From Tilletia caries (Eukaryota > Basidiomycota > Exobasidiomycetes > Tilletiales > Tilletiaceae): 64,000 nucleotides of DNA. The DNA is taken from the NCBI GenBank assembly GCA_032718865.1, contig JALUTQ010000003.1, positions 588,001 to 652,000 of the forward strand. Direction: 5' to 3'. This document shows, one piece after another, positions 100 through 39,503 of the stretch; the stretch's first letter is position 1, and each line of letters starts with the position of its first letter. The notes under the pieces were generated by a model that saw only the letters and a list, made by a program, of their open reading frames with translations, made no database searches and was not told the origin of the DNA. The translations under genes and the position numbers were made by a program.

Positions 100-3000
100 A
101 TGCCGACCGAAGTCACCAGGGAAGAACTCGAAGAACTCAAGTGAGTACATGACGTTACGTGCGCCCCTACAGCTCAGAACATTGACAAATACTCTCTCTT
201 CCCCTCTCTTCCCCTCTCTTCCCATAGCGCGCAGCGTATCAAGCTTGGCCTTAAGCCCCTCGAGGTCGAAACCGTCGATTCCAAAACGGATGGCGGCGCT
301 GCAGCTTCTGAAGATCCAGATGCCGTCGCTGAGGCAAATTTTGCGCGCGTCAGAGATGAGGCGCGCAAGGAGCGAGAGGACAAGGCTCTAGACGAACGTA
401 TTGCAAAGTGAGTATCTCCGTTTGCTACTTTGGTAGTCAGACTGGATGCTGACCATTCAGCGCTTTCACGCAGGGCAAAGAATAAGCGCGAATTGGCGCG
501 CAAGCTGGCAGGGAAGGGACTTGGCGAAGCCGCTGACGATCGGGGAGGAGACAGCAAGCCCGAATCGGCATTGGCATGGCTCAAAGCATCCAAGAAACGC
601 GCCAAGGAAAACGCAGCTCGCCGACTCCAACAGCAGATCGAAGAGCAAGAGGCCCAAGTCCAAGCCGAATACGGGCAAGATGATCTCGCAGGTCTTCGCA
701 TTGGGCACGACTACGACGAATTCGAAGAGGAAGGCGAGGAACGTATTCTCACGCTCCGAGATGCGCGCGTCCTTGAAGATGTAGAGGATGAACTTGTCGA
801 CCATGCCCTTGCGCAGAGGGAACAGGATGCGTTGAAGGACGAGCGCAGGAAGGGAGCGAAGAAGTACACCGGCTTGGACGACGAGGAGTTTGGTGAAGGC
901 GTCGGTCCTTCCTCATCTGTCGTAGGCAAAAAGCGCGGAGTCTTGTCCAAGTACGATGGCGATCTTGGCGAAGAGGACCCACTGACGAAATCTGGTGGGG
1001 AAGTAGGCTTTCGTATTGGAGGGCCGAAAAGGAACAAGGAGGAGATCAAGGCGCAGGAAGCTGAGGAGGCGGCACGATTGGCGAACAGGAAGCTGTTAAA
1101 TCTCGATTATGCTAGTGAGTGGACATCCTCGCTCCCTTTCCCAAAAGTTTCCGGAGGCGGGAACAGCAGCCGCTGCCATCGGTGACATGCTGACAGTGCT
1201 CTTCCCCTCCTTGCTGTGCCTGTCCTATAGAAAACGTGGAGGTCTCTGATTATTTGACCGAAGGAGAAGTCGGGTTCAAGAAAAGCAAGGTAAGTCACAA
1301 CATCTGGCCAACGCTCCATTGTTGAGGCCAGACTGAACCACCCCTCCCTCCCTCGATGTTCCCTTTTTCTGACCTAGGCAATCTGTGATTGCATTTGCCT
1401 CTTCCTGAACATGTTCGGGTTTCCTGCCATGTATTTGGTTGTCCCAACAGGGTAAAAAGAAGAAGCGCACGGCAACAAGGGTCATAGTCGATCTGGACGA
1501 CGAAGCCGAACCTGATCAAGCCGCGGCAGCGACAACGAATGGCGGCGACGCGATCATGGCTGAACAAGAGTCTACGTCGATGGCTTCAGGATCCCGACAG
1601 CGGTTGGTTGAGACCGACAATTTCGTTGACGATGACGATCTTCAGGCCAGTCTCGCCAAAGCACGGAGGCAAAAAGCAAAGAAGACTCTTAACAAGCTCA
1701 CGCCTGAGCAGATCGCAGCCAACCTGGCTTCTCAACGAGCCACCGAGGACGAAGAGTCTCGCAAGGATGTTGAGGCGAAGATGGAAGTTGATGATTCTGG
1801 GGACGGGGAACAGCCACTGACGTTCGATAGCACCACTGAATTTGTGCGGAATCTGGCTTTCAAGGCGGCTGCGGAGGAGCCGAGGCGACAGATCAAGTCG
1901 GAACCGTCGGACACTATTGCAACCCTGCCTCAAGAACCGGGACCGTCCGAAGTAGTTCGTAGCAGCGTCAAAGTAGAGGAGCAGCAAGCGGCCCCCCCGT
2001 CTGAGGAGCCTTCCAAGAAAACGCAAGATGGGCACGATGATGAGATGGACGTTTCGGAGGACGAGGACTTCGAGAACCTGGAAGTCTTTGCTGTGCCCGC
2101 CGAAGGAGCTGGCGAGGGCGAGGGTGAGGATGGTGCAGTAGATCAAGCGGAGTCAAGCTCTGAGCCGTTGGCGGGTGGCAGTATGGCTGCGACCGTATCC
2201 TTGCTGAGGCAGCAGGGTCTCTTGCAAGAGTACACGCCCGAGCTCAAACAGAAGGAGGCCAAGCAACGCGAGTACGATCTGTGGATGGCGGAGAGGCGTC
2301 GGCGGGAACGAGTGCGCGAGGAAGAGCTTGCTGCAAGTAAAGCGCGAGGTAGCGCGGTCGACCAGGCTACAAGGGAGTATGAGAATCAGCAGAGGGATCT
2401 AGCTGACGCCAGAGAGGCGCAGAAACGGTTTGCGAATTACAAGCCGGACGTTGAGCTCAAGTACCACGATCAGGTACGTCCTTACGTTGCGTTCAAATTA
2501 CCTGAACAGGTTGTGCTGACGTCTTGTGCCGAAACTCATCTCTGCAGTACGGTCGGGAGTTGAGTCAAAAGAAAGCCTGGAAGGTTCTCAGTCATCGTTT
2601 CCACGGCAAAGCTCCAGGTCACAAGAAGCAGGAATTGGAGCTGAGGCGTCTGGAGAACGAACGGAAGCGCGAGAAGATGGAGTCGGGCGACACTCCGACG
2701 GGTATGAGCAAAGCTTTCCAAGACCGATCCGAACGCACAGGACAGGCGCATATGGTTCTCAGCGTAGGAGCTCGCGGAAATGCGCCCCAGGAGCTGTCCA
2801 TGCTGGGTCCGGATATCACCAAGTCGGCACGACCGCCTCCTGCAGCCGCTGTGGGCAACAACGGCACGAGCAAAGGGAAGGGGAAAGGGAAAGCGTCCAG
2901 TCGTCATCCCGACATGTCATCCTCCATCTCCAGCATCGGGTTACAATCTTTCGTACCTCGCCATGTTGGCGGTGGTAGCGGATTGGCGAGTGTCTTGCCA

Positions 3001-3360
3001 TCGTCGAAGCGGAACGGGAGCACAGGGTCTGGCACGCCGTTGCCTCCCTCGGGTGCTGCTCCGTCAGCCCCGCCCCCGCCACCTCAATCTTCTTCGGACA
3101 CCGCCGGCAACGGAGGAGCCATGTTGCCGCCACCGGCCGTTCGACCTGTGATGAAGCCTGCCTTTGCACCTATCAAACGAGCGGCCGCGGCCTCTACACC
3201 GATCGGTCATGGTACGGATGCAGGTTCTGCTACAGCAGCGGCGCCTGCTCCTGCTGGGGCGGCTGATGGGGCGGGCCGGTTCAAATTGCAGTTGGGCTCC
3301 AAACGGAAGGCGGAGGAGCCCGCAACGGGTAGTGAGCCGCAAGGAAAGCGGCGTGGTTGA
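100..3360 (+). CDS. SNU66: U4/U6.U5 tri-snRNP protein, SART-1/Snu66 family
   Basis: Spliceosome component of the tri-snRNP, acting in the nucleus in pre-mRNA splicing. Inferred exons are 100-140, 228-407, 474-1114, 1231-1289, 1451-2473 and 2548-3360, joined by GT-AG introns that keep frame and give about 918 residues. The start at 100 was chosen because the first exon reads MPTEVTREELEELN and runs into the family's RIKLGLKPL motif across intron 1. Other family signatures seen are ALAWLKASKK, the acidic DLAGLRIGHDYDEF stretch followed by ERILTLRD, LDYA/EVSDYLTEGE, and the C-terminal YGRELSQKKAWKVLSHRFHG block with a basic GHKK tail. The last 200 residues after that block are Ala/Pro/Gly-rich and look disordered. 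Human SART1 is near 800 residues, so length fits. I am sure of the family; exon edges are predictions. Confidence 0.94.
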
Positions 3361-3614
3361 GTGAGGGGCGTCTGCGCTGGGGAACTTCCAAGCTGGGCTT
3401 CGGTTTCGGAGGTATGGGAAAGCATGTCCGAAGCAGCGGCGGGCTTCCTCATCGACCCGGCATCCTGATTCCTGCTCGGTTACTCATCTAGTCGCAATTC
3501 GTACGCACCGTGCGCATTCTGTTCTCCAATAATTCTTGTGATTCATTGATTAGCTTTGAGCCTTACTGAGGGGTCGTCGGGATCGTCGCGTTGAATCGGC
3601 TATAGCCGGCCTTA

Positions 3615-4205
3615 CACCAGCAGACCTGGGGGACTGACTGGGAGTGTCCCAGGGCGGGAGTGTCCCGGGAGAAGACCACGGGGCTGACCGGGACTGACCT
3701 AGCGCAAAAATCCCGGTATTGTCCCACGGGGACCGTCCCAAGACTGTCAATCTAAATAACAGGATAATCACTCCCCTTTCCAAATGCCTATGCTCAGGAT
3801 GGTTCCCTGAGGTGTGATTCGAGACTTTTTGGGCGAGTTTTTCTTAACCAGCCTCGCGATAATGCCAATACTGAGTGTATAAGTACTGATTAGAGAATAA
3901 TTTGCCGTGCTGAAAAAGCACTTATGGTCCAGTGGAAAGCACTGGTCATTCTGATTGTGCGGGTCGAGCGTTCGAACCCCATAGATTTTGATCTTTCGTT
4001 TTTTTTTATTCGAATTTTTTCCTCTTTCTCGGACAGTCCTGGGGCGGTCCCGGTGCCGGTCCCAGGATTTCGCTCCCAGTCAGTCCCGGGATAGCGGAGG
4101 AAACGCCGCCGGGACAGTCCCCCGCTGGCTGGGCCCATACAGATCTGGGACCGCCCCGGGAGATCCCGCGGGACCGTCACGACCTGTCCCCATGGTCTGC
4201 TGGTG
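3615..4205. mobile_element. Non-autonomous inverted-repeat element (MITE), 591 bp, TA target duplication
   Basis: The element begins CACCAGCAGACC and ends GGTCTGCTGGTG, an exact 12-bp terminal inverted repeat that continues imperfectly for about 12 more bases. It is flanked by TA at 3613-3614 and 4206-4207. The undisturbed copy of the target at 11215-11333 reads through as CTTAAG, so the empty site is visible in the window. No transposase is encoded. TA duplication suggests Tc1/mariner-type mobilisation. Much of the sequence is built from GGGAC/GTCCC words, so it should fold extensively. Confidence 0.85.
3912..3984 (+). repeat. Degenerate tRNA-like segment inside the MITE
   Basis: An A-box-like TATGGTCCAGTGG (typical of tRNA-Glu) is followed about 38 bp later by a B-box-like GCGTTCGAACCCC and then a run of T at 3999-4007. 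The anticodon arm does not pair well, so it is not a credible functional tRNA. It may be a tRNA-derived relic trapped in the element. Confidence 0.3.
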
Positions 4206-4232
4206 TAAGACCAATTGTGGGCGATAGCCTAG

Positions 4233-4939
4233 GCAAGTAACCTGAATGTCCCGATCTATGGTCGATTCGCCCCGAGCATGAGGCGATTGGCCCCGTAAGC
4301 GTTTTTTGAATTGAGCCCGTAAGATGAGGCGATTCAGCCCGTAATTATCGGCGACTGAACCCATAAAAAAAGGCGATTGAGCCCATAAAGATGGTCGATT
4401 GGCCCCATAAGGCAGGGCACTGGCCCCATAAAAATCTCAAATCGCCTTTGGCGACCTTCCCTGCTTCCAAATCTTCCAGATAAATTATTCTACAGCGGCC
4501 AGGGTGCCTGAAGTAACTGTACTGAGCTTCCAGGGTCATATCCGGTCATAGGGGGGGGGCCGGGATGGCGGTCTTCGGCGACGTAATTCACTTTGAGAGC
4601 TCGTCGACGGGCGGAAACGCTTCACAGAAGCTCGACTTGTGTGTGAGTCGAACCCTCTTACATACCTGAAGGCCCGACCGGTCGTTTGGACAGTGTTAGT
4701 ACACACTACCGCTCTATCCGGCTGAAATAGACATTACGGGCTCTGTCCACCATCTTTATGGGGCCAATCGACCATCTTTATGGGTTCAATGTACTAATCT
4801 TACGGGGTCAATGCACCAAAATTGCGTTTTTTACGGGCTCAATCGACCATCTTTATGGGGTCACTCAACCATAGATCGGGGTCAGTGCCGGGGTGCTCGG
4901 GGCGAACCGACCATAGATCGGGACATTCACCCGTTCTCG
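4233..4939. mobile_element. Inverted-repeat element, copy 1 (MULE-like MITE, 707 bp, 9-bp TSD)
   Basis: The left end GCAAGTAACC.. and right end ..CCCGTTCTCG enclose terminal inverted repeats of about 46 bp whose core is TGAATGTCCCGATCTATGG on both sides; only the outermost dozen bases differ. Flanking direct repeats ATAGCCTAG occur at 4224-4232 and 4940-4948. Subterminal regions repeat a short unit built around ACCATCTTTATGGG / GCCCCATAAAGATGG in opposite orientations on the two halves. The 9-bp duplication and long inverted repeats suggest a Mutator-like family; no transposase is present. A B-box-like GGGTTCGACTC lies on the minus strand near 4645. Confidence 0.85.
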
Positions 4940-4998
4940 ATAGCCTAGCCTCAGATCACCAGGCTGCCCTCGGTCCGGGCTTTGTGTCGTGATCGCCT

Positions 4999-7727
4999 GT
5001 GATGATCACCCACACTTCAAGTCACGTGACTTTCGTGGCTGATCGGGCTCCGCCGTCGCTGTTCTTCGACCCCGACCCCGGGCCCAAAGTCCCCTTCCCC
5101 AGCGACGAGATGCTTTCCTCCAGCGCTCTCAACAGCCACGAAACCGTCGCGTCCCACACCAGTCAGTTTCTCAGGACGCGCATCAGCCAGTGGCTGGCCA
5201 CGTCGGGTCCAACAGCAGTTGCTGAGAGATGGAAAGGAGCGCCGACTTTCGCGCTCTCTCTCGTTTGCGAGGCGCTCGTCAAGGAAGCAAAGCGAGGAAG
5301 CAAGATCCCCTATCTCGTTGGCGCGGCAGCAGGCAAGACGACAATGGCGGAACTGGAGGAGTTCGATCCAGAGACTTCGGCCGACTTGATCCAGCAGAAG
5401 CTGCCGACCATTCACTCCGTGCTCTCCGCCATCATAGGTTTGGACGCAGCGCAGAAGCAAAACGAGGACGAGCCTGAAGCTTCCCAGGAACAGGAGGACA
5501 GCGAGGACGATCAACCACGCGAGGACGACACAGCTACGCCTCACTTCCAGCTCCACGGTCAACGAGGACGTCCAGCGGTCGTGTCCTCGTGCGCGCATAC
5601 TTTGCTCTTTGCACGCAACTCTCGGTGCAACAGATGGCCCATGCAGCTCAGCGTGGATCTGGTCGGTGCGCGCGTTCCTCGACGCTCTTGCGAGTTGCTC
5701 TCACGACTGGGGTTCATCGGCTTTTGGCGGTCATCGCAGCGGTTGCTCGAGAACATGGCCAAAGACGATCACGCACGGGTAAAGCGACTAGTACGGCTTC
5801 CATCCTCGGCAATCAGCCTCTCCTACGACAACGTCAACTGGCAAAGAGGCGTCAGAGACAAACGCAGCGAGAAGAAGCAGCAGATGATGGCTGCAATATG
5901 CGGCATGGCCTACCTCCTGGACTACAAGGCACAGTACGACGAGAGCCAGCCAATCTGCTGCGACGAGCTCTTCAAGTCCATCTTCCATCCCGACGTCCCC
6001 CGCCCTTCGGCATCAGAGCCTTCGCCGATGAACCCACTCGACGAACAAGGGAGATCTATCGCCATGAAGCGATCTCTGTACGACGATGCCCGTGCGAAGG
6101 TCAAGCTCGACGACATCAAGCTCTCGCAATTTTTTCCTGGACGCGCAGAGGAAGAACACTTCTTGGAGGTCGTGGTTTCGCACGCTATACGAGCGTGGGT
6201 CGACCTACACGACGACAGCGGAGTGGACACCAGCAAGATTCGCCAACCACCACAAGTACTGCCCTTCTTGCCGCAGCGCACTCAGACAATGGGCTTGCCT
6301 GTTCTCAACGAGGATGAAGGATCGGTCTCCGGCAACATCGCCGTGATCTACGCCTACTTGAAGTTCCTCGGCATCGATGACGACGCTCGATGCGGCACTC
6401 ACAATCTTCCAGTGGTCGCCGACGCGTTGACGGTTGGCCATGTTCGATCTGCTTTGGCTCGGAGAGTGCATGACAAGTCGACCAACCCCAAGATCGACCA
6501 GCTTCAGTTCCTGCAACCCATGGCGGCCTTCTTCCACTTGCAGTACAACTTCCAGAAGTACTGGATCGACGCTCATGCCGGCACAGCTCAGCACCAAAGC
6601 AAGATCAGCGCGAGAGTTCTCTGCGATCGCGTAGGGATGAAGAATTTGTGCACAGGCGGAACCGACTTCCACGACATGGACGCCTTCCTCAAGATGCTGT
6701 TCGCTGCTCTGGTGGACGCGAAGGTCACGCCTGTTTTACGTGCGGCGGGGCACGGTGGTGAAGAGGACGACTTCGCGAATCTCAGTGCCGAGGCCCTTCA
6801 AGACACGATCCGGACTGAACTGGCACCGTTGCTGAAGAAAGTGCAGAGACAAAGGCACTCGATCATGGCGATCCGGAAGATGCAGACTTGCTCTGCCTGC
6901 ATACACGTGAGATGTTCCGGGACACCGCTATCTACCTGGAGCTCCGAGACGCTGTCAAGACGGGAGATCCGGGTCGCGTGATGGCTGCATCCAAGTTCAC
7001 CGTACCACGGTTCGCGGCCACCGGACATCACCGATACAGCAGCGAGGTACTGGACATGCTTGTTCAAGTACGCTTTGAGCTTCCACCGGCTCTCGTGACG
7101 ACAATTCTCTGCGCCACCTTAGTCAACCACGCCGGGAAGAAGGACAGCTGGTTTGCGGCCGATCTCGACATTGAGCACCAAGTCAACGAGCTCAAGAACA
7201 TCTTCAAGGTGACGGGTGGCAGCGACGCGGTCGCCCGAGGCCACATCGGCCAAATCATCACACCCCTATGACGACAGCGAGCAAGATGGTATCGTGCGGT
7301 AGGAGTTACAAGCCGTGACAACAGACACGCGGTGCGGTCGATGCAGAAGTCGATCGACATTCTGGCGAGAGACTTCGTCAACCTCAAGGCGTTCGATTGG
7401 ATCCCGCGGCGATCAAGCAAGTGCTTCGAGCTGTACCGAGGCGACGAGGTGCGGCAACGAAAGAAGGACGGGGAGCGCTTTGTCAAGCAGTCGAAGGGCG
7501 TTGCGACCGACTTCCACATCTACGGCTTCGCAAGACTGTCAGGAACGGAATCACTCTCCTTCAAGAACTGGCTGGCCCGACGTGCGCGTGATGCTGGTAA
7601 GGGGAGAGACGCTGAAGTACTGTCTCTGGATGGAGTTGACGATGTCGAAGCCCCGCCCACTACGATCACCTATGACGCGGAGACCGTGATGGACGAGTTC
7701 ATCTCTTTGATTGATGACGAATTCTGA
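4999..7727 (+). pseudogene. DUF6589-family protein gene, frame-broken
   Basis: The first frame is open from 4999 to 6981. It carries landmarks I associate with DUF6589 proteins of basidiomycetes: SSCAHTLLFARNSRCNR, the LSYDNVNW motif, and a VVADALTVGHVR stretch resembling the family's GDQLTV motif. The continuation (MFRDTAIYLELRDAV, GDPGRVM, LVNHAGKKDSWFAADLD) lies in another frame, with the switch somewhere in about 6800-6865 and no plausible intron. A TGA at 7269-7271 then interrupts it before the last part (RHAVRSMQKSIDILARDF to 7727). Function of the family is unknown to me; members are repetitive in fungal genomes. The gene converges with the RecQ-like gene at 8052-10308. Without the breaks it would be about 900 residues. 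Sequencing error cannot be excluded as the cause of the breaks. Confidence 0.75.
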
Positions 7728-28107: not shown

Positions 28108-31070
28108 CACCTGCGACATTGGCACAGCAGCGGTAAGGCCTCGCGGCTGACCGAAGAGCAACTCGCCAGTATTGGATGCGTCGAGTGTCGCGCTGGTGGA
28201 CACTACTACGGGCGTGGCGCGGATGGTCTCCCCAACGATCATAACTGCAGCTGCTCGACCTGCGGTGCCGACTTGGGTCGCGGCCGTCCTCTTCCTCACC
28301 AGTGTTCCTCCGCATCTGCACCTATCTCTCAAGACGCCATGGACGAGGCAGACGTAGCGGCTTTACTCGGCGGCAGTGCACCTCCTTCTACCGCAGTTCC
28401 GATCCCGTCCACTATCTCCTCGGCCCCGGTTGACAGCTTGTCGGATGAGGATGCGCTCAAGGAGTTCACTTTGCTGCTCGATATGGCGAAAACGACACTC
28501 TCAACCGGCCTGGTCAAAGATTGGAGAGCCTTGTGCAAGAAACTCGCTCAGGCCTACATCCTCAACCCGTGCAACCGCACCTTGTTGGACGTTCTCGGCG
28601 CCCCCAAGATTGCGCTTGCTCGGCTCCGATCCCCTCGGCCTCAGCACAAGATTGGCGCCCGTATTCACAGCTATCCGGATACACCCCGCCCTCCGCCTCG
28701 AACCCGCTCGAAGGGTCCTAGTTCCGACCGCCAAGTTCCTGAACTTGTGCATCGCCAACTCAAGAAGGGTTACGCGCGGCGCGCGGCACGACTCAAGAGT
28801 CCTCCGTGCGGAATCGTCAATTGCGCCGCTCACGGACGACATCATTGCCCAGCTCCGCAATAAGCACCCCAAGGGCCCTGCGGATGCGTTCGCGGCGGAA
28901 GGTCGGAATCCGCGTGACCGCGTCAACATCAGCTGGCCACGCAAAATCTTGACGTCTTAGGTGCCTTCAAGTCTTTCAATCGTGAGGTCAGCGGAGGCTG
29001 CTCAGGTTGGACTCAACCTCTCCTCAAAATTTCCTTGGAGGAAGCCGCCTTCGTCGAGTTTGTTCAGCTCCTCTGTCGCCAGATGGCGTTGGGGAATGCT
29101 CCCGGACAATCTCTACTTGGTGCGGCTGCTCTTACTCCTCTCAACAAACAAGGGGGTGGAGTACGGCCCATTGCAGCCGGCGAACTCTTGTACCGCCTCT
29201 GCGCCAAGGTCCTGTTGAAGTCGCTTCCTCCGGCTAATGCGTTGCTCCCCTCGCAGCTCGGTGTGGGCTCTCCCGGCGGTGTGGAACCGATTGTGCGCCT
29301 CCTGGAGCGATTTGTGGACGAGGTAGAGGGAGAAGGTGAATTTGAATTTCTCATTTTGCTCGACTTCTCCAATGCTTTCAACGCGTTGTGTCGAGCTGCG
29401 ATGAGTAAAGCCATTCTCAAGCATTGCAACAATCTCCACCGCTTCGCCAAATGGCGCTACAACAGCCCCTGTCCCCTCTTCTTCAACGGTTGCGCCCCGG
29501 ATCAACCTCTCCTCTCCTCCCAAGGCCTCCCCCAGGGTGATCCGTTCGGTCCCCTGTTCTTCTCGGTCACGGTGAGGGACCTCGCGGCGGAGCTGCAAGA
29601 GTTCCTAGGTGAAGATGCGCTGCTCGTTTGCTACTTCGACGACTGGACCATCCTGGCCAAACGCCCCGGAGTTCTCGAACGAGTCAAAGCTTTGTTTGCA
29701 GCCAAGGAGGCGGAAGGTCAGACTTGTGGGCTTGCGCTGAGTAGCGGCAAGTGCAAGGAGATGAGCAGGGAAGAGGTACGCACAGAAGGAGTACAGGTGC
29801 TTGGGACGATGATTGGGGGTGTGGCGCCGCGGGCGCGGTTTCTCGCGGAGAAGATCCGAGAAGAAGTCGAGGTTCTCGGTCGTTTGCGGTCGTTGGGACG
29901 TCAGGATGCGCTGCTCCTTCTTACAAAATCAATTCAGCACACCCTGCGTCATCTCCTCCGGACGCTCAGTACCGACGGCATCGATTCTCATTGGAACGAA
30001 CTGGACAACGCGCTGCACGAGGCGCTGGTGTTCCTTCGCGGGTCCACTGCACACAACAAAGAGGTCGATCGAATCTTGTTCTCGCTGCCGGCGCGTCTCG
30101 GGGGCTGCGCGGTCCCTCAGTTTGCGGATATCGCTCCCCACGCCAGGGACTCTATGCGCATGGAATCGGATCACACCCTGGCTATCCGCCAGTTGCTCCG
30201 TCCCTACACGTCGCCCGCGTTTCCTAGGCCTTCCTCCTTGGATGATGACGCAGAAGAAGAGCGGGGTCCTCGGCAGCGGGACCGGCTCAAGCAGGTCTGG
30301 ACGGGGATGCTCGTCAGCCTCGCAGTCAGCTCGGATGATTATCCTCCCCTCCTTCCCATCGACCAACTCATCTCGGTGCTCGGCCACCGCTCGCCTCTTG
30401 GCCGCCGCTGGCTCTCAGTCTTCCCTTTCGACATCAACACAGCATTATCTGATCGGGAAATTCAAGTGGGCCTGCAGCCCTGCAGCTTCGTACCTTGCAG
30501 CCGATGCACAATCTTTGCTGCTTGGATTGCGGACTGCGAGCCCCGCATGGCCACGACCAAGGCTCGGCAACTATCTTCACTATGTAACTATGATAACTAT
30601 ATAGTTATAACTAATAGTGATAACTTGACTATACTTTGGGCGGCGGAGCCGCCTAGAAAAAATAGTGGCTATAACTATCTCAGATCGGCGCGGAGTGACT
30701 AATAGTTATGATAGTTATGCCTTTATGCGGCGGACGCGCAGTCCACTTGGGCAGGCCGAGATAGCTACTAGATAGTGGTTACCCAGTAGCTGCCTAGTAG
30801 CTGGGAGTCACTCCTTGCCACTAGTAGTAGCTATCTTACCTAGCCACTAGCCTCATCAACTGACGAGCGACTGCTAGTCGATCCGAGTAGCTCTAGTTCG
30901 CTGGCTGTGGCTAGGAGTCGCTTTCTCAGTACTGCCGCCGCCCTGCCTCAATCAATCCCTCATCTCATGCGCAGGCGCTCCCACCTTGCATCCACCACCT
31001 CCCTTCCATGGATGGCTCATTCTGATGTCTTCCAGCACCGCTCCACCACATCGTCGCACCGAAGAACGTG

Positions 31071-33413
31071 ATGGTGTCCTACCGCGAGCTGTCCAAGGAG
31101 CCATACTGTGCGCTCTCGGCTCAGAACATCAAAGTTATTCGCGCGTACGGACAGAAACAATGCTGGCCTGATCAATCCTACGATTTCGACGACATCCAAG
31201 CCCGACTGTTCTCGAGACCAGATTCCCCCGCCTCGCGGTGTATTGCCTCACTATGGGCCGCCTACCGCGATTTCGACCTTCTCCAGCTCCCGGTGGACGT
31301 CAGAGGGGCTGGTCCGTACGGAACGATGGGAGAAGAATGTCTGGCGCAGGCCGCATGTCAAGAATTCCTCACCCTCGACAGTACGGATCCCGAACGCGCT
31401 CGGCGTCTTGCTCTTCTCGCCGTTACGGAGCTAGCTGAGCTTCTCCTATCGTCGGACACCGGATTTCCTTTGGCCACCGTCCGACGGTCGATTTTCGATG
31501 GTATCCTGTACGGACGAGTCATGTTTCGCATACTTCCCTTAGCCGTGCTCTCCCGCCGCGACTCGCCAAGACCCAACTCCTTTTACGACATCATGGATCA
31601 CGACGCAGATCCATCCGATCCGGTTTCCCCTTCGCAACCGGATTGCGGTTACGATTTCGACAACTCTTCCGCGCCAGACGTGTTCCTAACCCCGCCTGCC
31701 CCCCCGACCGTCTCCCCCTCCGTCCGTCGTTCCTGCCTCCCCGAAGCCGCTGGTCCGACTCGTTCCGACCAACCTCCCAAGGCAACGTTCGAGGCTGGCC
31801 CGTCGAATGCGGCTGCGACGGCAACCCCGGAGATTGCGGACGACTTAACTATAGTCCCAACCCTGGCCACCGCGGCGGGCTGCGATGCATCCTCGGAACG
31901 GGCGAACATCGACACGTCCACCGACCTCGTTGCGCTTCGGAAGCGGGAGGCCTGGATGAAGGTCGCGTTAGCCGCCGCTTTTCGTAAAGGGTATGTTCTA
32001 GCTGAAGAACTTTGGGATCCTTCCGAAGGAGGGGTGGGTCGGATTATCTTCCCTCCGTCATCGACGGAGCTCGCTGCTATCCACGAATTGAGTGGTCAGA
32101 TGGACGTGATGGATGCAGACACGACCGAGGCGGCGATTGGCGAGCCTGGGGTTACCGAGTCCACAGGTTCCGACGGGGCGACTCTCCGCGTGATGGTCGA
32201 AGTTGGCGTTTCTCCTCCCTCGCGGATGATAGGGTCCCCACCTCACTGGGTCGCGCAGCCGTCTTGGCTTCCCATCAGCATCTGCTCCCCCGCTGTGGCC
32301 AATAACTACGGCCCACTTTATCAACCCTTCGACCCACCGCCCTACTACCAAAGCTTCGGTCGATACGAGCAGGGCGATCGCATCGGCGCCGGCGTACATG
32401 GGCAAGTGTACAGATGCCGGGATCGCCTCACTCAACAGGTTGTCGCTGTCAAGTGGTCGAAATGCGAGGAAGCCAGACGGCCTCCGAATTCGACGCTACG
32501 GGAGATCAGCGCGCTGAAACGACTGCAACACAAGAGCATCATGTACTTGCATGCGGTAGTGTACGACGGCATCGGAATCGGTCTCGTCTTCGGATTGGCT
32601 CAGCAAGATCTACGGGCGGTCATCAATCTGCGTGGCCGCGGATCTCTCAACGTCCCTCTCATCAAGCTGTATATGCGCCAGCTCCTGGAGGGGTTGGCAT
32701 ACCTCCACGAACAAGTGAGTATCACTACGTCTTGTAACCTGGTTTCCGATCCTCTTCATACTGATGGCACACAACTTCGTGAACGTCTTCGCCACTAGAA
32801 GTACGTGCATCTGGACATCAAACCAGAGAACATCCTTTTGAATGCCGATCATCGCCTGAGGATCACGGACTTTGGTCTGGCCCGCCGGGCGGGTCCAGCA
32901 GGTGGTCAGAGGTCCGTTGTCACGATGTCGTATCGTCCTCCTGAGGTGTTCTTTCGTACACCCACCTTCACCTCGGCCGTTGACGTATTCTCGGCAGGCG
33001 TTGTACTGGCAGAAATTTTGGGTTCAGTACCATGGAGCCAGTCCGCGTGGCAACCTCTGCCTTGCTTCCAACACATGCTGGAATACCTAGGGTGTGGACC
33101 TGGAGAGGTATGGCCCGGCGCGGATAACAACCCCGGTGTCTGGCATGGCGACGATGTCGTGGGAGACGAGCCGATGCTCCTCGCCAAGAAAGGCCGGATA
33201 CGGTTCCAACCACGTCCTCGGCGTATCCCGCAAGACCTGCGGTGTGTCTTCGACCATGCTGGAGACCTTCTCAAGCTCGTTGATAAGTGCCTAGAAGTCG
33301 ATCCAGAGCTTAGGCCGCGAGCGAAGCATCTGCTTCGGGCCCATCCTGCATTCCAGCGGGACCCTAAACCGGCCGTTTTCGGTGTGCGTCCAGCTGTTGG
33401 CAGTATTGTATAA
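31071..33413 (+). CDS. CDK-like serine/threonine protein kinase carried by hAT element B
   Basis: Two exons, 31071-32714 and 32799-33413, about 752 residues. The first 440 residues match nothing I know and are Ser/Pro-rich in the middle. The kinase domain starts with GDRIGAGVHGQVYR (G-loop), VAVKW (Lys), and PNSTLREISALKRL, which resembles the PSTAIRE helix of CDKs with its Glu. After the intron come VHLDIKPENILL (HLD in place of HRD), ITDFGLA, and SYRPPEVFF (activation segment end). CFQHMLEYLGCGPGEVWPG resembles the CDK LGTP..WPG segment, and PELRPRAKHLL gives the subdomain XI Arg. All catalytic residues are present, so activity is plausible. The GTG before the ATG is not used. It sits between the hAT left end and the zinc-finger-like gene, in the same direction. 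Confidence 0.85.
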
Positions 33414-33910
33414 CAGAGGCATACCTTCGAAGCATAGAACTTGAGCTGGTCTGTTCGATACAGCCATTGACTGCGACTTGTAGTGGCTAAACGGTGTGAA
33501 CTTGTGGCATACAGTCACCGAATGTGACTAGTAGCAGCTTGCCAGCTTTACGGAACCCGCAAAACTTCTCGTCACTTCTAGCCTTAGATTGGTGATATAG
33601 CTGCTACCAGTCGCAGGTAGTCGCAAGTAGTAGCTATTCTAGTCACTACTAGTTACAGGGAGTGCTTAGTAGCCGCTAGTTTGCACCTGGAGAAGTGAAA
33701 AGATCATGTAATTGATTCCAGCAAAACATTACAACACATGAGTCTCTTCTCATCTTTCCCAACGTCCATCAAGTCTTACCAGTCTTCGACGGCCGTCGAC
33801 AGTCATCGAGACAACGTCATCCGTACACACGCAGTCGTCTATACACACGCCTCTCACGTTGAACAACACGCCTTCAACAGTTCGCCTTGAACAGTCCGCG
33901 CACCGCATCG

Positions 33911-34810
33911 ATGGCTGGACGCGTTCCACGAGATCAACGAGTCGTCTGCGTTGTTCGCAACGAAGGGGGCTGGACGGACACCCTCACGCAAGGGGGCCGG
34001 GTTTATTCGCGAGTGGAAGGAGGAGAACTCGGTGTGGTCCTATCACAAGGTCGACTTCGTCTGGAGGTACCTTCCGACGACGAGGATGCTGCGGGTACTC
34101 ATACCGTTAGCGCAACCGGTCCGCCGAGCTTGTTGAGCTTGTCTCTTCCCCCCGTCGTCAACCCTGGCGCGACAGCGATCACAGGACCCGAAGAAGTGCG
34201 TTCTAACACAGGCAACCTTACCACGCCATACAGCGGTGAAGGAGGAGCAGTTGGAAGCGTACCGAACGACTGCTCGGACGAAGAGGACGTCGCCGCACCT
34301 CCTCCTGGGCAGTCATCCACTACGACCACCGTTCCCAGCCTGGACCTACCTCTGCACGCCGCCCACCTCACCCTTCAAGATGCGCGGAGCCCAGCGGCGC
34401 GACGGGCGCTCAAGGGTACAGCCACTGGTCGAATGACGCAGTGGCACCTTGAAGACGTGGTCGTCTACGACCCCGATACACCTCCAGCGGGGATCAAGAG
34501 GACGAAAGGCAGCAAACGGGCAAAGTTGGACAAGGACGGAAAACAGATCAAGGAGATTTGGCGGTGCCGACGAACAGGATGCGATGCCGTTCGCACGGTG
34601 GATCCCGGAGTGACGAACGTCATGACTCGCCATCGGCCATACTGCCACCAACTGCCCTTCTCCGAGTTGATGCATCGCCCACAGCGCTCATATCAATGCC
34701 TCGGCCATCGGTTCCACCCCTTCCATCCTTCGTCAGACGTCAATCACGTCAGACAAGGGGCGCATTCAAGTTCAACACAATCAACAGAGCATGGCACTTT
34801 CAAACGGTGA
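33911..34810 (+). CDS. Zinc-finger-like protein of unknown function inside hAT element B
   Basis: Single open frame of about 300 residues starting MAGRVPRDQRVV. The middle is Ser/Thr/Pro and acid-rich. The conserved-looking part is MTQWHLEDVVVYDP, a basic stretch (GSKRAKLDKDGKQIK), then IWRCRRTGCDAVRTVD..NVMTRHRPYCH, a Cys-Cys-His-His arrangement like the BED-type finger of the transposase encoded opposite (WQCRLCGG..NLALHL). I infer DNA binding, perhaps to the element's own motif arrays. The last 60 residues after CHQLPF look like read-through, and an intron there is possible. Confidence 0.5.
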   Translation: MAGRVPRDQRVVCVVRNEGGWTDTLTQGGRVYSRVEGGELGVVLSQGRLRLEVPSDDEDAAGTHTVSATGPPSLLSLSLPPVVNPGATAITGPEEVRSNTGNLTTPYSGEGGAVGSVPNDCSDEEDVAAPPPGQSSTTTTVPSLDLPLHAAHLTLQDARSPAARRALKGTATGRMTQWHLEDVVVYDPDTPPAGIKRTKGSKRAKLDKDGKQIKEIWRCRRTGCDAVRTVDPGVTNVMTRHRPYCHQLPFSELMHRPQRSYQCLGHRFHPFHPSSDVNHVRQGAHSSSTQSTEHGTFKR

Positions 34811-37800
34811 GAAGCGGTAGCAGAGTGGTGGGGTTACATCGAGCATAGACGATAACCGATGGCGCTGTCTGAGTCTTGGGGCAACGCGGTTGGTGCACCT
34901 GTCCCCACGAAGACGTCGAGCAAGAGCCATATCCTTTGGCATGACCGTCACGCGCTTGGCATGAATGGAGGCGGTGAAGCCTCTGGCAAGAAGCTGACTG
35001 GTGACGACGAGTTGTTCCAAAGCTGTCGGACCCAGCGGACGGCGTCCTGACACGTAACGTCCAGCACGCGAGAAGACGCGCTCAACCTCGGAAGTCGATC
35101 CGGGTGCAGAGAGACCCTACGAGCAAGCTTGGCGAGAGTTGGGTAAAGAGCCTCGTGTGATTTCCACCAACCCAGCACCGTATCACCAGGGACCTTTGAC
35201 CCCTTCTCGGCTAGTTGATAAGGGTTCCGATTCGCAAGGTAGGCGTCTACCTCCGTCTGCTCGGCCCGGATGGTCGCCGCTGAGCTGGCATTCGGCAGCT
35301 CGCGCCTCCACTTTTTCGGAAGAACAGACTTATGCTTGGAGGAACCTGGAACGGCGGGCTCGGACGGACCAGATGGGCTGTCAGAGAGTGCTCGCACCTC
35401 TTCATTGAGCAATGTCTTGACGCGTTCCACTTTGTCCGGGTAGTCGGCTTCGAAAGGGTCGAGGCGGTATCGTGGGTGGAGGACGCCAGCGAGAAGCAGC
35501 GTCTTGTTCTGAGCGGCCGCCTCCTGGTAACGTTTGATCTTGGTCCGCATCTGCATCAACCCAGTCTTCAGTTCCGCAGCAACGTCGCCGTTCTTGCTGC
35601 CAGCCTCCTCGATCTCGACCGAGAGGATGTGAACGAGTTCTCCGAACCGATGTAAGACCAAGCAGGCGTTGCTCGCATTCCGCTCGAACAGCAATGTTTG
35701 CCGGTGCACATACGACGATACCAGCGGATTTGTTGAGCAATATCGAAGTCGCGCTCCGTCAGGCCGATCGCGGTGACCTTGGGGCGAGTGGAGTTCTTGC
35801 TGTAGAGCAACAGGCCTTCTCGGATCTTGAGTGCGGCCTGCACCTGCTTGTAACGGCTGTTCCATCTCGTTTGATTCAGCTTGGGAGGAACCTTGTCGAC
35901 CAGCCTGGGGTTGTCATGATCGCGGTAGGCCATGGACATCCACTTCTTAAACTCTCGCAGCGAATCGGACGAGCTGTAGATCTGGGTGACGACGCTGGCG
36001 ATCTTGTTCAGAGGATTGGCCAAATCTTCGTCGTCCTCGCCCTCGACGTCGGCCGCTCCCGATTTGGTGCCCTCGCCTTTATCCCCCTGTTCGGCATCAT
36101 CATTACCTTCGTTACCGCCCTCTCCAGGCCCTCCGTCTTCTTCGTCTTCCTCAACCACCGTCGCTAACTTGCAGCGAACGTCCGCAAACATCACAAGGGC
36201 CTCCTCCGCTTCCGGATCGTCTGGCTCCAGTTCGCCTTCACGAACCCCTCCCGCCTGAACAACCGCAGCATCGTCTCCAGCCCCTCCCTTCTCTCCTTCG
36301 GCACCTCCGATTCCGTTGCCCGCAGAGGTGATTTCGGTCTCAGCGGCACCTTCGTCGTCCGACAGCGGCTCGTTATCCGAGTCATCGACGGGATCGTCGG
36401 CAACGGACTCCTTGGACTCCTCTGGGTTATCCGCGGACGCACGAAGAACACCATCATTGGCATCGGCTTTGAGGCCCATTCCGCTATAGAAGTCGACCAT
36501 GCCTCGATTGAGGACATGGTTAAAGCAAAAGATGTTGTGGTCCCCGCGTCGATGCTCAACCGCCTTCTGAGGGTCGTCTCTATCCTTGGCGAATTCGTAT
36601 TCGAGAGCGTCGCACATCCGCCTGTTCGCCGAGGCGGCGTCGCCGACGAGAATGCCGGACCACAGATCGAGCAGGTTGTGCTCTGAAAGAGCGCGGATAA
36701 GGTGCCCAGCGAGAGCAGCTCCGGTGTGTGGACCGCGTAAGACGGTGAAGCTGAGGATAAACTGCTGGAAACTCCAGTCGGTGTCAACGTAGTTGATGAC
36801 GAAGGCGAGGAACGTGTATCGCCGAGACGGCGACGTCCAGCCGTCGTGGGAGACACTGAAAGTGAGCTGATTCCGCTTTAAATGATCAACCGCTTCGCGG
36901 AGGATCTCTCCGTGGGCGGCTTCGAGGTCGCGACGAACCGTCCGGGCCGAGGTGAGTGCCGGAGAGAGGGAAGGGTTGATTGCTCGGATGATCTCCCTGA
37001 AGTGGGGGTTCTGAGGCTCTGTGAACGGCTGGTTCGACGCGATAACCCACTTGAGTACCAGTCGGCGTACTTCGGTGATCTTGGCCTCCGTCGCCTGAGC
37101 TTTCTGTGAGCTCATCCAACCGTCGAGTCCTTGCTGACCCCGTCCCGGCCGAACCGATGGAGTCGAGAAAGATGACATGGCGGGCGACGCGAGTTTGTCC
37201 TTGCCGGCGTCTTGATTCGTGCGCTGGAAAGTCCCGGCGAAGGACTTGTCAATGGGGTCGAACAGCCGGCTGCAGAACGAGCCGTTGACCTTCTAATTGA
37301 GATGTAAGGCCAAGTTCGAGCGGTTCTCCGGATGGGCGGTGTAGTGGCCACCGCAGAGACGGCACTGCCAAGTCTCGTCCGTACCGACGTACTTCTCGCC
37401 GGTCCGGCGAGTCTTGGGCTTCTTGGTCGCCCGGACGAACTTGAAGAACCGCGTGGATGTCCGATTCTCCATCTCGGGGAGATCGTCATCCTCGTCATCA
37501 CCCTCCGAACCCTTGTCCTGTTGATCGACCTCGCCGGACTGGGTTGATGCGGTCTCGCCGGCCGTGCGTGTGCGAGCCGACGGGCCGCGCAGCTCCTCCT
37601 CTTCTTCGGAGGTCATGCCCCCGTGGGAACCTGAGTCGGACCCTGGCTTCCCCGACCTGGCCTTTGTCATGACCCGTTTCTCCGACGCCGTAAGGGCGCG
37701 GCGCTTGTCGGACAGCAAAGGGTTGGTGGTCTTGCTGGTCGAGGACTGAGTTTTCTTCGGGGGAGCCTTGGGTGGGACCGCCTTGCCCTTCCCCTTCGAG

Positions 37801-38530
37801 CGCCCAGGAGGAATGGGGCGCTCGGTCTCGTTGCCGTCTGAGCCGGTGATGGGGGCGCCCTTCGGCGCAGCCACATAGCGAGGCTGCTTCGCTTGCCGGA
37901 TGGCCGTGGCGCTCCCAGATGCTGCCGTTCCCTGCCGGCCTGATGATCGCCCCTCTCCGTCGCCGTCGGTCGCATAGTCGGAAAGGCCGCTGGGCGCCCG
38001 ACGCCGACGCTTGCCGAGTGCCGACTCGCCCGCCTGGTAACCCTTGAGCAGCTGCCGACTGTTGCCGACAGTGGGATCCGCCTGGAAGGCGGCCCATAGC
38101 TTGTCCCCTTCTTGCGTGGCAGACGCGGGCTGAGGGACAATCAGGGGGACAATCAGGCGTGAGTCGACAGTGCAATGAGTAATGACCACGGCAAGGGTTA
38201 GAAAGAACTCACCATAATGGTCCAGCAATCTGACGTGGTCGTCAAGCCGTCGGTGGACTTGGCCTCGTCGAGTCCGCTTAAGAATGCGCCAAAGTTCTTG
38301 CGGCGCAGAGGTCCGAGAGAGAGGGCGTCGAGTTGTTCGCCGGCCTGCATTAACGTGAGATCGCCGAATAGGTAAGAGCAGGCGATGTCGAAGCACCGCC
38401 GGTCTTGCTCGGCTGGCGCGATCGCGGCGGAGGCGGCGGCATTGTCTGGCTGGTCTTGTTCGGCGGCGGCCTCGCGTTGCGCGACGGCCTGGGTTACGAA
38501 CTTGGGCAAGGCCCGCTCGTTGCTCGTCAT
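34781..38530 (-). pseudogene. hAT transposase of element B, disrupted
   Basis: Minus-strand gene: exon 1 38530-38213, intron to 38130, then a long frame from 38129. A BED-type finger (ETWQCRLCGG..NRSNLALHL) is followed at 37293-37295 by an in-frame TAG. The same frame continues with the RNase H-like region (FSVSHDGWTSPSRRY, GDAASANRRMCDAL, FCFNHVLNRGM, TRWNSRYKQV). It shifts frame near 35735 (TLLFERNASNACLVLHRF, then VLGWWKSHEALYPTLAKLARR) and again near 35105 in a (TC)3 run before the hATC dimerisation motif (STSEVERVFSRAGRYVSGRR). A long acidic insert (about 36000-36420) separates the catalytic blocks. One nonsense and two frame changes mean it is probably inactive, although each could be corrected by a single small change. 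Confidence 0.88.
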
Positions 38531-39503
38531 GTCGGATGCCAGCCTTGGGCTGGGCGATAGAGTGGAGAGTTGCGGTGAGGGGGGATATGGAATAGTGGCA
38601 GGCTGTGGCAGCTTGTGGACTCTGGGAGTCCGAGAATTGGCGTGAAAAGTTTCAAGTAAGAAGCCACAGACTGTGACGTGACTCGATGGTCACTGGGAGT
38701 CACTGTAGCTGCTAGCTCACGTGACCGTAATTTGCACTGAAATAGTTACTAGTAGCTACTACGAGCCAATATAGCGACTATTTCACCAAAAAGCCTGCCA
38801 AAATTTTGCACATCTGAAATAGTAACTATTAGTTTTTATAGTGGCTAGGTCTCACTTGACTATACTATCTCGCGCCGGGGCGACCACTCACTATAACTTG
38901 ACTATACTATTTCAAAAAAAAAATGGTAACTCTAGTAGCTTGCCGAGCCTTGGCCACGACGACACTTGCACGATGGTGTCTCACCGACGTGTCAAGCGTC
39001 ATAATGCTGTGGGATATTTCGTTGAGCAGGGCTTGGATCGGGTGCCTGGGACGATGGTGGTGCGGGAACCTCATTTGATTGGGGACAACCATCGCACAGA
39101 TCTGCGCGTCTCGGGGCCGGGCGCTCCTCGTGGGGTCCTTACCGAGTTCGACCTCACCTTCATCTCCACCACCTCCAAAGTCGCCCAGGCGATTGCGCAC
39201 CGCACTGAGCGTCAGCTTCTTCCCACGGGCATGGACAGATGGGCTATTGCAAGGGCGGCATTGGATGCCATTTTGGATAACAAGGCGGAGTCCAAGAGAG
39301 CTCTCTACGAGCAGCTGCTGGAGCACCGGGGAACGGCCTTCACCCCATTGGTATTTTCTCTGGAAGGCGCCTCACACCATGCGGCGACGACTGCCCTCAG
39401 GCATTGGAGGGGCTTGATGCACTCTTTCTCTTACATGTTCAACGCTATTTCAATCACTCTCCTTAGGTCTCGAGCAGAGACATTTGCACTCCGTCTTTAC
39501 TAA

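Follow-up and report, generated by a model that had tools for sequence, protein, structure and literature searches.

Tilletia caries hAT transposons with a CMGC-type kinase gene convergent to the transposase

A kinase gene inside a hAT element

The window analysed here is the whole 64,000-nucleotide stretch of DNA from Tilletia caries (contig JALUTQ010000003.1). It holds a hAT transposon of 8,395 bp (30558..38952; genome position G000:C3:618558-626952), with an intact two-exon protein kinase gene and a further gene, referred to as gene 3, on the plus strand, and an interrupted transposase and the remnant of a histone H3-like gene on the minus strand. A first-pass annotation of this DNA had claimed a hAT element with exact ends and an 8-bp target-site duplication, which was confirmed. 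The terminal inverted repeats of 13 bp are exact (CAAGGCTCGGCAA, 30558..30570, plus strand; TTGCCGAGCCTTG, 38940..38952, minus strand), the 8-bp duplication GCCACGAC is identical on both sides (30550..30557 and 38953..38960), and homology to full-size copies spans exactly these limits.

Exon 1 of the kinase gene (31071..32714, plus strand) encodes an N-terminal helical domain (approximately residues 1-160), a linker and the kinase N-lobe, as delimited by the Pfam kinase match, a domain alignment and a structural model. An 84-bp GT..AG intron (32715..32798) separates it from exon 2, an open reading frame (ORF) that encodes the C-lobe and ends with the stop codon (32799..33413). Both exons pass the Pfam Pkinase cut-off of 31.7 bits (exon 1, 64.2; exon 2, 32799-33410, 86.8), and the G-loop, the VAVK lysine, the PNSTLREIS helix, HLDIKPEN, DFG, YRPPE and the WPG segment are all readable, so the earlier description of a kinase resembling cyclin-dependent kinases (CDKs), with its catalytic motifs between the transposon ends, stands. 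P0001, a database protein named Tilletia controversa, is 98% identical and has the identical splice; protein matches of 98-99% to T. controversa and T. laevis were obtained.

The transposase on the minus strand comprises an open frame with the 5' part and a BED-type finger (37296..38651; WQCRLCGGHYT..NRSNLALHL, named by eye; start putative), a core with the first two catalytic Asp residues (35571..37292) and a 3' part with the RNase-H-like end and the dimerisation region, recognised by weak Pfam matches, in which the frame is interrupted (34951..35913). The window copy scores 21.0 bits with Pfam Dimer_Tnp_hAT (PF05699), just below the cut-off of 21.4, but four sister copies lie above it (50.2-52.2 bits). 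All three catalytic residues (DDE) align in 11 of the 11 transposases given. With the 8-bp duplication, the short inverted repeats and, in the sister copies, a DDE transposase with a dimerisation region, the element belongs to the hAT superfamily. The window copy is defective, its transposase being interrupted and most of its H3-like gene deleted, two features that the first-pass annotation had missed; because of the interrupted transposase it is probably non-autonomous.

Searches with the left and right ends retrieved four further full-size copies, C40 (9,687 bp), C25 (9,271 bp), C32 (9,749 bp) and C30 (10,913 bp), every one flanked by a different, perfect 8-bp duplication (AGACTCGG, CCCAGTTC, CGCACAAC and CTCGACCA, respectively). 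The kinase lies between the same ends, and the duplication is perfect, in all five full-size copies found. The two kinase exons read without a break in the window and C32 copies; those of C40, C25 and C30 carry frameshifts or stops. That a host kinase gene merely had an element inserted around it has practically no probability, given that one and the same kinase sits in five copies whose duplications differ and that 36 convergent pairs occur genome-wide; a host gene with a nested element was likewise ruled out by the five copies and their different duplications.

Kinase-less copies exist, and those observed are short and non-autonomous: two derivatives of about 0.7 kb, and at least 12 copies of 613-622 bp paired from the best 40 left and right end matches, contain neither kinase nor transposase. 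The expectation that independent copies share the kinase was borne out for every full-size copy found. Window-family copies that differ by about 1-2.5% at silent sites occupy different places, and a relative, C34, has empty sites; no excision was seen.

The kinase is also found inside bounded elements of three other families. The C33 element (L052) measures 9,034 bp, with ends CAGGGCTCGGC and a perfect duplication GTCACTAT. The duplication CTCAAGGT of C9 (L053), first seen at the right end, recurs next to the left end CAGGCCTCGGC, where the terminal repeat has one mismatch. C34 (L054) is homologous to a second copy over 604-6996; seven of the eight duplicated positions agree, two empty sites are present in copies of the flanking repeat, and the exact ends are placed to within a base or two. 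The motif GCTCGGC recurs at ends in the window, C33 and C34 families, and C9 has it at its right end. In L051 (C4:1626k) and L050 (C32:806k), the left end was located and the right end was not found. Short non-autonomous elements were also seen in or beside other kinase-bearing hATs: one at L053:7718-8458, with the duplication GACTAAGA and the shared CAAGG/GCCGAGCCTTG ends, and two others (C40:378337-378950 and C24:3956-4570) with both ends matching the window family.

Association of kinase and transposase across the genome

Genome-wide counts were taken from search lists and are lower bounds. The kinase query matched 59 places and the transposase query 87 (76 of 102 candidates scored; 60 of the 87 rows used, since the remaining 27 were additional pieces of loci already counted); merging gave 47 clade loci with a transposase (E < 1e-12) and seven weak loci of other hATs. 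A kinase lies within 9 kb of 37 of the 47 clade loci, in convergent orientation at 36 of them, and it is therefore no one-off capture. Among the seven other loci one has a kinase nearby, and this kinase also pairs convergently with the clade locus C40:1834343; at none of the seven is a kinase convergent. A second route combined Pfam kinase and Pfam hAT-dimer matches with eight kinase places from the kinase query (for the Pfam kinase, 117 of 272 candidates scored and 150 of 154 matches used). Here a kinase occurred within 6 kb of 39 of 74 hAT-dimer places, 36 of them convergent, against 2.9 expected from the genome fraction (binomial 3e-35). The layout is conserved over families whose transposases are approximately 30% identical. 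Three kinase-hAT loci (C21:1099232, C21:1119075 and C21:1138935) are spaced about 19.85 kb apart, apparently as a tandem array of a larger unit.

The kinases were grouped by us into two main types, both present in one subfamily. Type A (window, L050, L051a, L052/L031 and L053) consists of the N-terminal helical domain with a D-x-RGAGPYGP motif, a linker and a CDK-like kinase, and its gene has an intron; in type B (L051b, L054-L059 and L066) this N-terminal domain was not seen. Smaller groups are type C (L034, L065 and L069) and type D (L068). At L051, a type-A and then a type-B kinase (L051:4392-5408 = C4:1629529-1630365) were read in letters ahead of the transposase, and second kinase Pfam matches are placed likewise at C22:1177307-1178143 and C40:619857-620693. 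The input for a tree was 54 sequences (18 element kinases, six host kinases and 30 of 97 database proteins), of which three short database rows were dropped. Types A and C group together with a support of 100 and types B and D with 99, while A+C joins the CDKs at 78% ultrafast bootstrap, pointing to no more than a moderate CDK relation. A single origin of all element kinases was neither rejected nor supported (approximately unbiased test, p = 0.32).

HxD and DFG are kept in all 18 element kinases, which appear catalytically complete by their residues and are predicted to be active. The HRD arginine, on the other hand, is absent from all 18 (the window reads HLD), whereas that pattern identifies five of six host kinases as RD, the remaining one being HRD by eye. 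The proposed kinship with CDKs is therefore a tentative one. Like CDKs, type A has a PSTAIRE-like helix, the only feature seen that would bear on cyclin binding, and a WPG segment, and exon 2 finds its best PDB sequence matches in CDK2 and 6z3u, the latter a CDK7-type complex. Unlike CDKs, the element kinases are non-RD (HLD/HFD), show no equivalent of the T-loop threonine by eye, and carry, in type A, an extra N-terminal helical domain. The AlphaFold model of this domain is all-helical (mean predicted local distance difference test score 73), and a Foldseek search against PDB gave no match at E ≤ 0.001 (124 at E ≤ 10); a cyclin fold, considered for it, was dropped.

Between type-B families, the ratio of nonsynonymous to synonymous divergence (dN/dS) was 0.071, 0.098 and 0.244 for the kinase in three pairs, a fourth being saturated, and 0.096, 0.095 and 0.175 for the transposase, dS being near saturation. 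These ratios indicate purifying selection on the type-B kinase comparable to that on the transposase. Joint history was assessed with the 11 of the 47 transposase loci for which letters were obtainable, the transposase partner of the window kinase being taken from a sister copy (L040). Kinase and transposase distances correlate strongly over the 11 elements (r = 0.968, p = 5e-5) and within type A (r = 0.93, p = 0.018, five elements). In sum, several independent families have the kinase inside their ends, it moves together with the transposase, and in type B it has been under purifying selection. It is very likely a conserved, working accessory gene, and probably these elements form a clade of hATs whose usual set is a transposase and a convergent CMGC-type kinase, the latter serving as an accessory protein of transposition.

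Several observations weigh against this interpretation. One clade pair, C28, is not convergent, and 10 of the 47 clade loci have no detected kinase. At C5:1625749 and C1:245737, 3.4 kb 3' of the transposase was read and no kinase was found there; transposition without the kinase may therefore be possible. Two further kinase-less loci, C4:2222680 and C4:2373753 (L048 and L049), have a common right flank and look like duplicates of one locus. The lysine after HxDx is replaced by T in one of the 18 element kinases and in the database kinases P0007, P0009, P0020 and P0023. In type A, silent sites have reached saturation between families; between window and L050 kinases, the proportions of differing sites are 0.83 and 0.86 (silent) vs 0.30 and 0.42 (replacement), and the corresponding transposase comparison is saturated as well. 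Among recent window-family copies, kinase exon 1 evolves near neutrally (dN/dS 0.60-1.71 in 10 pairs), with too few changes in exon 2 for a judgement and a transposase dN/dS of 0.25-0.82; the near-identical pair L052/L031 gave 0.745 for the kinase. The overall correlation rests mostly on the split between types A and B. Within type B, agreement is poor (r = 0.41, p = 0.09, six elements; r = 0.52, p = 0.013 with L051b added), suggesting that kinases were sometimes swapped, as with L054, whose kinase is nearest to that of L057 and whose transposase is nearest to that of L055. Finally, [ST]P sites are not enriched in four of five transposases (L053, p = 0.026), and [ST]Px[KR] sites in none of the five. 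Enrichment of the transposase in CDK-type sites, considered as a sign of a substrate, was accordingly set aside for those four.

The near-neutral decay of exon 1 would suit functionless host genes caught by transduplication, like the ruined H3-like copies of Pseudocercospora fijiensis, and capture of host sequence by hATs has been published (PMC3538342, PMC6710886). In addition, the window-family kinase has a linker similar to part of a kelch-like host ORF (L028). A mere passenger would nonetheless hardly keep its layout across families with transposases only about 30% identical, its catalytic residues, and, between type-B families, the mark of purifying selection, and among the genome places matched by the kinase query or the Pfam kinase none was recognised as the source of type A or type B; we regard this explanation as very improbable. 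According to the first-pass annotation, a kinase at a conserved host locus would betray a single capture; no such locus was identified, although a few kinase-like places (C4:999k, C19:1132k) had no transposase found near them. The former (L034, C4:999128-999802) is an intact type-C kinase with a weak match to the N-terminal domain and may be a stranded or domesticated copy. The linker resemblance covers residues 276-347 and falls at C32:896003-896218, within a kelch-repeat, Tea1-like ORF (by eye); this part of the window-family kinase is likely a captured host piece.

In database searches, the type-B profile (7,996 candidates sharing most words scored) gave 17 strong clusters, all named Tilletia, after which the strength of the matches drops from E 2e-53 to 2e-26. 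For type A, one of six matches was near, a cluster of 10 sequences named T. controversa. The Spok spore killers of ascomycetes bear a kinase, and a kinase that benefits or poisons the host cell, so that the element is kept, would agree with the many copies and with a distribution in which all strong type-B matches are Tilletia. Yet no toxin-antidote pair was seen and the tight pairing with the transposase favours a role in transposition, which makes selectable cargo or drive, the former already raised by the first-pass annotation, quite improbable.

The H3-like gene and the possible role of the kinase

Relative to the four other full-size copies, approximately 1.3 kb has been lost from the window element at an internal deletion junction with a 6-bp overlap (34967..34972). 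The loss took most of an H3-like gene, present in C40, C25, C32 and C30 on the transposase strand with two introns and interrupted in C25 by a stop in the first exon. Its 3' remnant, about the last 25 codons (IHAKRVTVMPKDMALARRLRGDR), persists in the window (34898..34972, minus strand; Pfam Histone, 29.2 bits vs a cut-off of 26.4). All four copies share the tail ARTKQTARFSTGGK, in which K4 is kept and the K9 position is F. The divergent H3-like gene of L052 has the tail ARTKCVARYRS, with Y at this position. A protein database search gave 7,357 matches, and among the 120 listed the five Tilletia-named rows all lack K9 (R in four, F in one) and keep K4; the two canonical H3 of other fungi read for comparison have K9. 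These cases are few, and P0132 represents the window family.

Genome-wide, 34 H3-like loci were counted from all 31 rows of one search and 30 of the 65 of another, rows that were C-terminal pieces of the same loci or resembled other histones being left out. Seven are in kinase-hATs (five in the window family, C33 and C27), eight near a relative of gene 3, three are canonical-looking, judged by open single-exon cores, and 16 are others; letters were read for six of the 34, C27 not among them. Some kinase-hAT families add a finger protein and a K9-less H3-like histone to the pair. The H3-like gene was found in two of the four bounded families and not in L053 or L054, nor was it seen in the stretches, several of them partial, obtained for L050, L051, L053 and L054-L059. 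The kinase must therefore have a use independent of H3.

How the kinase would act is suggested by its residues and its company. Its non-RD character would let it be active without phosphorylation of the activation loop, so that an activating kinase may be unnecessary. Probable substrates would be the transposase or chromatin proteins bound to the element, and their phosphorylation might lead to expression or transposition in a permissive state. We consider it possible, though somewhat doubtful, that the kinase licenses transposition in this way, through the transposase or through chromatin. Since some of the same elements hold a K9-less histone, we lean towards chromatin as the target.

A more specific proposal is that the elements escape silencing through a K9-less H3, placed in their own nucleosomes or poisoning an H3K9 methyltransferase, together with a histone-modifying kinase. 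The tails read here, all without K9 and with K4, agree with it. It is weakened by the presence of the H3-like gene in only half of the bounded families, by work in fission yeast, where H3K9M is dominant and K9R (hht3-K9R) had little effect on silencing (PMC5030085), and by the view that the H3-like genes of Pyrenophora tritici-repentis hATs may have drifted (PMC3538342). We hold this proposal to be somewhat unlikely. It is unlikely, too, that a hAT lineage with such a signalling and chromatin kit re-marks its own copies, escapes silencing and times its transposition, with the ascomycete H3-hATs following the same strategy and not representing accidental capture.

H3-bearing hATs have been described in two ascomycete groups. 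In P. tritici-repentis, Manning et al. 2013 described hAT elements with an H3-like gene, an unknown central ORF and expressed sequence tags (PMC3538342). Like the Tilletia elements, they have hAT ends, a transposase, an H3-like gene with an altered tail and a further ORF, but they are ascomycete elements of about 5.6 kb described as transduplication, and the word 'kinase' is absent from the main text of that paper. Dhillon et al. 2019 reported H3 in hAT elements of P. fijiensis and relatives (PMC6710886). These elements (9.5-9.9 kb) likewise have an 8-bp duplication and an H3-like sequence, but the H3 is ruined by repeat-induced point mutation, mostly truncated and captured without introns, and 'kinase' is again absent from the main text. 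By contrast, two introns were read in the Tilletia H3-like gene of L039. The bunt-fungus genome paper counts hAT elements, and neither 'kinase' nor 'histone' occurs in its text (PMC9172201).

With the hobo/Ac/Tam3 hAT superfamily, the Tilletia elements share the 8-bp duplication, the short inverted ends, a DDE transposase, a BED-type finger and the Dimer_Tnp_hAT region; they differ in having a conserved convergent kinase gene (one, or two in one subfamily). Autonomous DNA transposons are generally seen as needing just one or two proteins that they encode themselves, besides the signalling of the host. The present findings suggest that these elements bring their own tools for chromatin or for the transposition machinery. 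The first-pass annotation knew of no described fungal hAT with CDK cargo, and a search of titles and abstract openings in one library of open papers found no publication describing a kinase-bearing hAT element. As far as this search shows, a clade with a kinase kept long beside its transposase would be the first such case. It would make it testable whether transposons control phosphorylation themselves, and the absence of K9 from the element-borne histones read offers a concrete hypothesis for resistance to silencing and allows the ascomycete H3-hATs to be read anew.

Gene 3 and the host site

Gene 3 (33911..34810, plus strand) is an ORF for 299 amino acids with relatives elsewhere in the genome. 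The claim of a Cys/His protein is retained, its product being BED-finger-like by eye, although a Pfam search with it gave no match. Eight H3-like loci lie within 7 kb of gene-3 relatives (C19:343722, C23:898191, C30:498158, C5:1644247, C3:1289042, C25:548178, C39:102814 and C22:1171082); all but C22 have no kinase or hAT-dimer match within 15 kb. Another type of mobile element with a finger protein and an H3 may exist. The window element is flanked by reverse-transcriptase-like sequences (28918-30555 and 38985-39503) which, once joined, do not stay in one frame; its host site is a retroelement with a reverse-transcriptase ORF (PF00078).
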